Shown here in pieces: positions 6,043 to 46,327 of a stretch of 48,814 nucleotides of DNA. Made by a program: the position numbers and the translations under genes. How positions within the stretch are numbered: position 1 is the stretch's first letter; each line of letters begins with the position of its first letter. The stretch lies in assembly GCA_028688375.1 (NCBI GenBank), contig JAQTYG010000008.1:1-48814 (forward strand). Reading direction: 5' to 3'. Under the pieces are notes generated by a model. It was not told where the DNA came from. It searched no databases and saw only the letters and a program-made list of their open reading frames with translations. Source of the DNA: Patescibacteria group bacterium (GTDB lineage: Bacteria > Patescibacteriota > Patescibacteriia > Magasanikbacterales > GWA2-37-8).

Positions 6043-6145
6043 GAATTTATAAAAACACTAGAACCTGCCTGTCGGCAGGCAGGTACGAGAACATTAAAAC
6101 ACGGGTTGTTTTAATGCTTTCATATTTTTATGTTTTAATGAGCCT

Positions 6146-22420: not shown

Positions 22421-22501
22421 GCGCGGGTGGCGAAATGGTAGACGCACTACTTTGAGGTGGTAGCGCCGCAAGGCATGGAGGTTCGAATCCTCTCCCGCGC
22501 A
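22421..22501 (+). tRNA. tRNA-Leu (anticodon GAG)
   Basis: Acceptor stem GCGCGGG pairs with CCCGCGC (22494-22500), discriminator A. Anticodon stem CTACT/GGTAG closes loop TTGAGGT, giving anticodon GAG at 22454-22456 (reads CUU/CUC). The long variable arm (GCGCCGCAAGGCAT region) and T-arm GGAGG-TTCGAAT-CCTCT are as expected for a class II leucine tRNA. CCA is not encoded. The 3' end is duplicated downstream. Confidence 0.93.
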
Positions 22502-22654
22502 CGAACGAGCGATTAAACAATTTTAATCGCGAGCGGGGATTCGAACACCGGAGCGATGTCACGCGAGTTTGCTGACGAGCGTGACCGCGAGGTGGTGGCC
22601 AGACTGCCGAGTCGGAAGACGAGGCGAGTCGCGGCCGAATCCTCTCCCGCGCAC
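22484..22654 (+). repeat. Direct repeat of the tRNA-Leu 3' end flanking a 133-bp GC-rich folded insert
   Basis: The last 19 bases of the tRNA gene region (22484-22502, CGAATCCTCTCCCGCGCAC) are repeated exactly at 22636-22654. The intervening DNA contains hairpins: CGATTAAA-CAAT-TTTAATCG near 22510, GTCACGC/GCGTGAC (about 22559-22586), and CCGCGA/TCGCGG spanning about 22585-22635. The arrangement resembles target-site duplication by an element integrated at a tRNA 3' end, but the insert has no gene. Confidence 0.7.
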
Positions 22655-22669
22655 ATTTTAAACTAAATT

Positions 22670-24264: not shown

Positions 24265-24280
24265 ATTCACAATCTTGCCT

Positions 24281-24400
24281 CGCTCGTCGAACATTTGTTT
24301 CGGACCCGGGTCGGCTCATCTGTGGATTCGCCGCCCTTACGCTCATTCCGGCTATGACGCCGGAATTCCGCGATAGTCCTCAACAAAAATTCGATTCGCT
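24281..24400 (+). repeat. Folded intergenic repeat element, copy 2
   Basis: Outer arms TCGAA/TTCGA and TTTGTT/AACAAA, central core CGCCGCCCTTACGCTC, hairpin ATC-TGTG-GAT, and hairpin ATTCCGGC-TATGAC-GCCGGAAT. Compared with copy 3 several base pairs change on both sides (for example A-T for G-C at the end of the CCGGC hairpin), so pairing is kept while sequence is not. This copy is transcribed in the ndk leader. Confidence 0.85.
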
Positions 24401-24444
24401 CGGTTTCATCTTTATCTATTTTCTATTAACTATTTTCTAAGTAT

Positions 24445-25044
24445 ATGGCCAACAAGAAAGAACGTTCGTTTGTTATCATTAAACCTGACGGTGTTCAGCG
24501 TTCGCTGATCGGGGAAATCATTCAGCGGATTGAACGCACCGGCTTAAAGCTGGTGGCTTTAAAAATGGTTTTGCCGACTGAAGATCAATGCTGGACGCAT
24601 TATAATAAAGACGACGCTTGGTTTGAAGCCAAGGGCGCCAAAATGGTGGACAGCCGGAAATTGGCCGGCTTGCCGACTGATAAACCGGCGGCGGAATATG
24701 GTAAAGATATCGTCCGCGCGTTGGTAAAATTTATGACCTCCGGTCCGGTGGTGGCGATGATTTGGCAAGGTAACGAAGCGGTCGGCATTGTTAAAAAGAT
24801 TGTCGGTGGCACCGAGCCGCTGACTTCCGACGTCGGTACCATCCGTGGTGATTTAACCATTGATTCCTACGATTTGTCCGGCGCCGATGAGCGCGCCGTG
24901 CGCAACCTGATTCATTGTTCCGACAAACCGGAGGAAGCGGAAAGAGAAATCGGCATTTGGTTCACTTCCGATGACATCGTCAACTACCGCTTGCTCAATG
25001 AAGAAATACTTTACGACGTGAATTTGGATGGAATTTTGGAGTAA
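24445..25044 (+). CDS. ndk: Nucleoside diphosphate kinase, long form
   Basis: Balances nucleoside triphosphates by passing phosphate through a catalytic His. The 199-residue protein is clearly of the family: RSFVIIKPDGVQRSLIGEI, KFMTSGPVVAMIWQGNEAV, GTIRGDL and NLIHCSDKPEEAEREI with catalytic H157. The usual enzyme has about 140-150 residues. The extra length lies in an insertion of about 35 residues after THYNK (about 55-88), about 12 residues before the catalytic loop, and a C-terminal extension. HCSD replaces the usual HGSD. The gene is monocistronic, between a consensus promoter and a strong terminator. Confidence 0.95.
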   Translation: MANKKERSFVIIKPDGVQRSLIGEIIQRIERTGLKLVALKMVLPTEDQCWTHYNKDDAWFEAKGAKMVDSRKLAGLPTDKPAAEYGKDIVRALVKFMTSGPVVAMIWQGNEAVGIVKKIVGGTEPLTSDVGTIRGDLTIDSYDLSGADERAVRNLIHCSDKPEEAEREIGIWFTSDDIVNYRLLNEEILYDVNLDGILE

Positions 25045-25054
25045 GCTAAAAAAT

Positions 25055-25098
25055 AAACATTAAAAAACCCTCGGCTGACCGAGGGTTTTTTAATGTTT
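25055..25098. terminator. Bidirectional intrinsic terminator, ndk / predicted ncRNA
   Basis: A 20-bp perfect stem (AAACATTAAAAAACCCTCGG and its complement) with loop CTGA. T-runs occur on both strands, so it can stop ndk rightward and the predicted RNA leftward. Confidence 0.92.
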
Positions 25099-25259: not shown

Positions 25260-25276
25260 AAGTGGCTAATTTTAAA

Positions 25277-25396
25277 AGCGAGCCAGACATTTGTTTCGGA
25301 CCCGGGTCGGCTCGCCTGCAGGCTCGCCGCCCTTACGCTCGTTCCGGCTTTGACGCCGGAACTCCGCGATGATCCTCAACAAAAATCTGGCTCGCT
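25277..25396 (+). repeat. Folded intergenic repeat element, copy 3
   Basis: The best-formed copy. Outer arm AGCGAGCCAGA (25277-25287) pairs perfectly with 25386-25396. Inner arms are TTTGTT/AACAAA. The core CTCGCCGCCCTTACGCTCG follows a GCC-TGCA-GGC hairpin and precedes GTTCCGGC-TTTGAC-GCCGGAAC. It lies just beyond the stop codon of the leftward gene at 25409 and upstream of the small-RNA promoter. Confidence 0.88.
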
Positions 25397-25408
25397 CTTT
25401 CGATCTCA

Positions 25409-27490: not shown

Positions 27491-27527
27491 TCCGACCTGC
27501 CTGCCGGCAGGCAGGCGCAAGGTCGGA
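27491..27527 (-). terminator. Hairpin after rpmB
   Basis: TCCGACCT/AGGTCGGA enclosing the palindrome CCTGCCGGCAGG. It begins 5 bp beyond the rpmB stop on the minus strand. There is no long T-run, so a processing or boundary role is also possible. A CCTGCCTG..CAGGCAGG relative is in the eno leader. Confidence 0.45.
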
Positions 27528-46060: not shown

Positions 46061-46089
46061 ATTATATATGAAAAAAGGAATTTTGTCAA
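46061..46089 (-). promoter_or_regulatory. Perfect consensus promoter of typA
   Basis: Minus strand: TTGACA (46089-46084), 17 bp, TATAAT (46066-46061). Start about 16 bp before the ATG. Most of the -35 box lies inside a 42-bp palindrome. Confidence 0.9.
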
Positions 46090-46126
46090 ACCTCCGCCGC
46101 TTGCGCGCAAGCGGCGGAGGTTTGAC
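46085..46126. repeat. Perfect 42-bp palindrome overlapping the typA -35 box
   Basis: The 21-bp arm (46085-46105, starting GTCAAACCTCCGCCGC) is exactly complementary to 46106-46126, with no loop. It overlaps the typA -35 box, which begins 1 bp inside the arm. Beyond it lie GTCTGCC-CACA-GGCAGAC (about 46138-46155) within GACTCCG/CGGAGTC and then GTCGGAGT-CA-ACTCCGAC (about 46159-46177). No gene is encoded in this gap. Confidence 0.9.
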
Positions 46127-46182
46127 TCCGTACCGAAGTCTGCCCACAGGCAGACGAGCGTCGGAGTCAACTCCGACGTTTC

Positions 46183-46300
46183 GCTCGTCAGACATTTGTT
46201 TCGGGCCCGGGTCGCCTCGCCTGCGGGCTTGTTGCCCTTACGCTCGGCTCAACTGTGACGTTTCGCCTCCGCGATGACCCTCAACAAAAATCTGTCTCGC
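46183..46300 (+). repeat. Folded intergenic repeat element, copy 4
   Basis: Same order as copies 2 and 3: GTCAGACATTTGTTTCGGGCCCGGGTCG, hairpin GCC-TGCG-GGC, GCCCTTACGCTCG, a partly paired loop with GTGAC, CCGCGATGACCCTCAACAAAAATCTGTC. Outer pairing CAGA/TCTG and TTTGTT/AACAAA is kept, but the core hairpin is less regular. It lies between the typA palindrome and the ppsA promoter. Confidence 0.78.
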
Positions 46301-46327
46301 TCATATCTTAATACAACATCAAATTTG

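Follow-up and report, generated by a model that had tools for sequence, protein, structure and literature searches.

What kind of element keeps its pairing when the sequences that pair differ from one copy to the next? The question is raised by a 48,814-nucleotide contig of a Patescibacteria group bacterium (the window, in what follows), in which a preliminary description made from the letters of the DNA had pointed to four intergenic segments sharing an ordered set of inverted repeats and hairpins. The four segments and their order of parts are present, a pattern for the core matching exactly at four places in the window and in none of 100 shuffles (0/100), and the outer arms are indeed unlike between copies, yet self-complementary. 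Table 1 gives their positions, the parts of copy 3, and a related element beside a tRNA gene.

Table 1. Elements in the window, with the parts of copy 3 as placed by the covariance model
Feature	Position	Strand	Match or model columns	Setting or remark
Copy 1	1282-1424	+ (folding)	R1, 105.9 bits, E 3.3e-21	class-II tRNA-synthetase gene on one side, scpA on the other (Pfam); GC-rich mini-palindrome inserted in hairpin 2
Copy 2	24279-24403	- (folding)	R1, 128.1 bits, E 2.3e-26	UPF0102 gene / ndk (Pfam); antisense to ndk
Copy 3	25275-25399	- (folding)	R1, 142.4 bits, E 1.2e-29	ndk (+) / uncharacterised ORF (-), ORF stop 9 nt off
Copy 3, outer stem P1, 5' strand	25378-25398	-	columns 2-22	partner columns 105-125
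Copy 3, outer stem P1, 3' strand	25275-25295	-		21 pair columns with 25378-25398
Copy 3, P1 tandem GA/GA internal loop, 5' half	25376-25377	-		other half 25296-25297
Copy 3, hairpin P2	25336-25368	-	columns 32-64	
Copy 3, hairpin P3	25304-25332	-	columns 68-96	tandem GA loop and bulged A
Copy 4	46180-46304	- (folding)	R1, 113.5 bits, E 5.6e-23	TypA/BipA gene (-) / probable + strand gene (Pfam)
tRNA-linked element	22536-22643	+	R2, 109.1 bits, E 1.0e-21	
tRNA-Leu(gag)	22421-22501	+	Rfam tRNA match, ARAGORN	directly upstream of the tRNA-linked element

Fold, folding strand and covariation

The fold is a three-way junction made of an outer stem, P1, of about 20 bp and two inner hairpins, P2 and P3, and each of the three arms contains an internal loop of tandem GA. 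P1, whose sequence is almost private to each copy, is interrupted four pairs from the junction by its GA/GA loop, which is invariant or nearly so in alignment A3 and reads TC/TC on the complement; P3 carries a bulged A as well as its GA/GA loop. No motif of the family is better conserved than the C-GGA-G / C-GA-G internal loop at the base of P2, and over 88 copies the invariant or near-invariant positions on the folding strand are this C-GNAG / GAG loop, the AG that precedes P3, the G that follows it and the bulged A (91%).

Some copies also contain nested mini-palindromes. One of these, CCTGCCTGCCGGCAGGCAGG, lies free at window positions 6063-6084 and 27495-27515 and is nested within P3 of one copy (L047), and a second, TCCGCC..GGCGGA, is nested in further copies. 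Perfect or near-perfect palindromes of 20-21 bp also lie near copy 3 (25055-25098, apparently the ndk terminator) and near copy 4 (46085-46126). The NDK encoded at 24445-25044 has 199 aa and matches its Pfam profile in two stretches, which suggests that it carries an insertion absent from the usual enzyme.

The strand on which the elements were originally read was the wrong one, and it is the reverse complement that folds (the minus strand in copies 2-4 and the plus strand in copy 1): the former has TC/TC internal loops and imperfect pairs of the A-C or C-T type, whereas the latter has GA/GA and G-U. In 21 copies the mismatches on the folding strand were G-A rather than C-U by 49 to 0 and G-U rather than A-C by 34 to 5, and with each column-pair type counted once the balance was still 38 to 5 (p = 2.5e-7); the G-U share was low (4%). 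The same asymmetry is seen in the distal arms alone (G-A 40 vs C-U 3; G-U 27 vs A-C 11) and in 88 copies (G-A 147 vs C-U 18; G-U 146 vs A-C 55). Folding energy was lower on this strand in 17 of the 17 copies tested, by 3 to 17 kcal/mol, with a consensus energy of -61.8 as against -46.5 for the complement. Because G-A and G-U (G-T) are stable mismatches in RNA and DNA alike, the mismatch test tells which strand folds but not whether it does so as RNA or as DNA. Of the earlier proposal that selection acts on RNA or a cruciform, the selected fold holds, but a symmetric cruciform is not supported as the form under selection, since the strands differ. The idea that copy 2 is transcribed as the ndk leader likewise finds no support, the strand that folds best running antisense to that gene.

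Pairing is maintained by compensatory change. In a gapless, structure-free alignment of 13 copies, both sides had changed in 26 of 46 pairs; in the later alignments, which were fitted to the model and lean to structure, doubly changed pairs numbered 40/46 (23 distinct rows), 41/46 (21 rows) and 45/46 (88 copies, 1571 double-changed cells), and none of 500 shuffles (0/500) reached the covariation scores or the double-changed cells of any of these four alignments. In the 88-copy set pairing is seen in 92% of pair cells, vs 36-45% with slid partners. The compensatory changes and the selection on a fold that the preliminary description had proposed thus hold genome-, order-, class- and phylum-wide in statistical covariation tests. 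It had also named two outcomes that would speak against them, paired positions that do not covary in a genome-wide set and a match to a known transposon-derived repeat with simple decay; the first was looked for and covariation was found instead, and simple decay of a palindrome is excluded by the strand-specific mismatch types. Selection acts on one folded strand, with template switching a likely helper.

Distribution and a second family beside tRNA genes

Over all 33 contigs of the genome (969 kb) blastn found 17 copies, and a covariance model of 13 gapless copies (R1) gave 20 strong copies at E <= 1e-9 in the 0.97 Mb; every copy examined is intergenic. Of the two expectations first voiced, hundreds of copies per genome or a preference for this region, the former fails at about 20 copies, while the window does have an excess, though a mild one (4 copies in 5% of the genome vs 1.0 expected; Poisson P about 0.02). 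Searching the genome and its relatives with covariance models, as had been suggested, both confirmed and enlarged the family. R1 finds one further genome in the same taxonomic family, and at the order level copies occur in two genomes of another family (G030 and G043) with the architecture kept and the stems different. The class yielded copies in at least 18 of 286 genomes and the phylum in at least 22 of 380 sampled, often several each and six or more in several; the wide searches scored 8 or 11 candidates per genome, and these counts are lower bounds. Most of the 380 genomes are without the repeat. A repeat confined to one genus, which was suggested when blastn found nothing in relatives, was overturned by the covariance models.

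No family of Rfam 15 matched at gathering threshold, the window and 18 related loci giving tRNA and tmRNA only; weak scores for THF-II-riboswitch, VA-RNA and microRNA in permissive scans were at chance level. No match was found in phages or plasmids, among 5,426 genomes of E. coli (E <= 0.01), or in viral contigs searched with one sequence pattern, and the core pattern gave chance matches alone across the genome collection, in clostridia and one actinomycetote. The open-licence literature held no account of such a repeat in this phylum. The repeat is a previously uncatalogued family, absent from Rfam.

Weak R1 matches first led to a second family, also absent from Rfam. In almost every one of 29 loci its element immediately follows a tRNA gene on the 3' side, and these genes cover many isotypes. 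Within the order, 14 of 86 genomes carry about 57 copies between them (model R2), and the copies covary strongly (23/33 pairs) and have the tandem-GA hairpins and the C-GGA-G / C-GA-G motif of the first family. The right arm often repeats the 3' end of the adjacent tRNA, as at window positions 22502-22660, where it repeats that of tRNA-Leu(gag) and the left arm resembles an inverted copy. A common origin of the two families is plausible. Beside tRNA-Asp in two species of one genus (L069 and L082), a hairpin stands between the tRNA and the tRNA-linked element, and its stem sequence is largely different with pairing and loop kept.

Probable mobility and the alternatives to it

The reading we favour, with a rough probability of 0.55, is that of a non-autonomous mobile (MITE-like) repeat recognised by its single-stranded fold, as RNA or ssDNA. 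At the atpD-atpC site the gap measures 292 bp and holds two copies, one inverted, in one genome (G013), but 25 bp in same-genus G019 and often 5-25 bp in other members of the family, so that presence and absence at an orthologous site, as looked for in a mobile repeat, is seen between G013 and G019 with its relatives. The short site speaks to presence and absence, not direction; loss from G019 is possible, and most relatives lack the insert. The second, inverted copy (beside L062, about 1355-1479) was missed by R1 and found by a further model, R3. As the 25-bp gap of G019 contains no comparable palindrome, the arms most likely arrived with the element. Two copies in G129 mark the edge of the unit, the identity of their flanks ending exactly at the arm ends, and terminal inverted repeats of the kind that define classical, DDE-type MITEs are present (mean of 20.5 Watson-Crick pairs in the arms of 46 copies). 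Copies are dispersed in both orientations, and in G642 they lie among unrelated genes. At two loci of G642 (L212 and L216) truncated 5' halves, followed by a shared spacer, precede full copies in a BIME-like mosaic.

Dispersal, patchy multi-copy occurrence, covariation, strand asymmetry, the better fold of one strand, the occupied and short site, the unit edge, and the position of copies beside stop codons and antisense to their neighbours argue for this reading. Against it stand the lack of a Y1 (PF01797) transposase match in the source genome (0 matches, with 5/14 controls positive), the lack of enrichment of target-site duplications (86 copies, lengths equal to the cross-copy control; one copy has a 6-bp candidate, with no overall excess), and the lack of a phage, plasmid or E. 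coli match that might indicate a vehicle. The source genome has three reverse-transcriptase (PF00078) matches, on contigs C17, C11 and C15 (L092-L094), which were not linked to the repeat.

Were the repeat mobile, the unit would take in the complete palindrome with its arms, about 120-170 bp, and to be copied it would have to be recognised as a folded single strand, either RNA or ssDNA that is exposed as the DNA replicates, by a factor, probably an enzyme, supplied in trans. Such a factor would read the shape together with the invariant nucleotides at the P2 base and junction, which would leave the stem sequences free to change, and copying with template switches could rewrite both arms at once and so help the stems to turn over. 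The antisense bias described below would then have arisen because copies that put the folded strand into host mRNA were lost. The near-private arms are unlike simple copy-and-paste and need either template rewriting or selection on each copy. The fuller version of this proposal, a phylum-wide family of mobile three-way junctions defined by shape, copied through the folded strand with both P1 arms rewritten together, is put forward tentatively and somewhat against the odds. The repeat offers a handle on spread without a REP-type transposase.

The main rival, a cellular structured RNA family in which transcripts of the folding strand act as a small RNA or protein binder and each fold is selected, is improbable. 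The invariant junction bases, bulged A and C-GNAG/C-GAG loop resemble the core of a protein- or ligand-binding RNA, the compensatory arms suggest that each copy is maintained, and the cousin family follows tRNA genes on their 3' side and shares their strand. Were it an RNA, the repeat would add a new structured class to a phylum whose RNAs have had little study. The gene context, however, speaks against this rival: in 44 copies with both neighbours called (context ORFs were called mechanically), both neighbours ran opposite to the folding strand in 23 cases vs 8 on the same strand, and the folding strand has no excess of TATAAT upstream and no T-run downstream when compared with the other strand. 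The absence of the repeat from most genomes of the phylum also tells against a cellular role. As the folding strand is mostly antisense to its neighbours, it is the less stable complement that would mostly appear in mRNA.

This last point brings in a sense-strand element of mRNA 3' ends, a terminator-like or stabilising hairpin placed just past stop codons. Adjacent gene 3' ends do lie within 18 nt of a copy in 25 of 49 cases, 19 of these 25 belonging to genes opposite to the folding strand, and the complementary strand also folds strongly. It does so, however, with UC/UC loops and A-C mismatches and 3-17 kcal/mol worse; no T-run is seen, and some copies lie inside operons (e.g., atpE-atpF and rpsL-rpsG, genes named from translations). 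We regard this explanation as quite unlikely.

Neutral palindromes, whose arms are made or repaired by template switching in replication and covary with no selection on the fold, have slightly poorer prospects still. Template switching is documented to yield multibase compensatory changes and can rewrite stems in one step (PMC8794818), and the low G-U share is in keeping with such an origin. Stems do get replaced as whole blocks where the cores of the copies are nearly the same: in G135 and G210 quite different paired arms surround such cores, and copies in G129 show the reverse, near-identical arms with the P2 and P3 stems replaced. In the source genome closely related copies have recognisably related arms, which differ mostly by paired transitions. 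Neutral palindromes, however, predict strand-symmetric mismatches, and those seen are strongly asymmetric, distal arms included; the phylum-wide invariant junction bases are also left unexplained. Template switching is thus disfavoured as the sole cause and may be a contributing mutational route, and the repeat is a natural experiment on the origin of compensatory changes, by selection or by template switching.

Insertion of a short core into the tips of pre-existing palindromes such as terminators, the arms being the target, was once favoured on the strength of the near-identical cores within different, perfectly paired arms in G135 and G210 and of the copies near stop codons, but fell, and is now very improbable, with the short same-genus site that has no comparable palindrome, the relatedness of the arms of several copies to each other, and the strand-specific G-A/G-U pattern shared by the distal arms.

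Comparison with known systems

The T-shaped terminal palindromes of the parvovirus type consist of a long stem with two internal hairpins, and their likeness to the repeat is anatomical only; no relation is claimed, the copies here being solitary and chromosomal with no linked replication gene seen. The attC sites of integrons are conserved in structure and variable in sequence, have one strand that folds, and are found just past the stops of genes, to which the folded strand is antisense. The repeat resembles attC in these structural and positional traits and differs in being a three-way junction, with no cassette arrays seen. Set beside the attC boxes (RYYYAAC / GTTRRRY), the 5' arm has GTT and the 3' arm AAC in the source genome, and alignments showed that these are not conserved in relatives.

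REP elements and their BIME and REPIN arrangements (TnpA-REP, RAYT) are also dispersed intergenic palindromes with a strand-specific fold, and for REP elements only the folded single strand is processed and stem imperfections matter (PMC8266576). They are hairpins of 20-40 bp, however, and not three-way junctions of 120-170 nt; they have a GTAG/CGTC-type tag at the hairpin foot, whereas no conserved sequence lies outside the arms in the source genome; and they are served by a Y1 transposase, which that genome lacks. ERIC/IRU, YPAL, Correia and other MITE-like repeats (reviewed in PMC2229807) are close in size and setting, being palindromic, intergenic, about 100-150 bp long and thought to be non-autonomous mobile DNA. 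The sequence similarity of enterobacterial ERIC does not extend to the present repeat, as the E. coli search above indicates. Small folded repeats are usually lineage-specific and defined by sequence, whereas this one is held by structure across a phylum: unlike ERIC, YPAL and Correia, its stem sequences turn over, one fold persists phylum-wide, and its tandem G-A pairs are specific to one strand.
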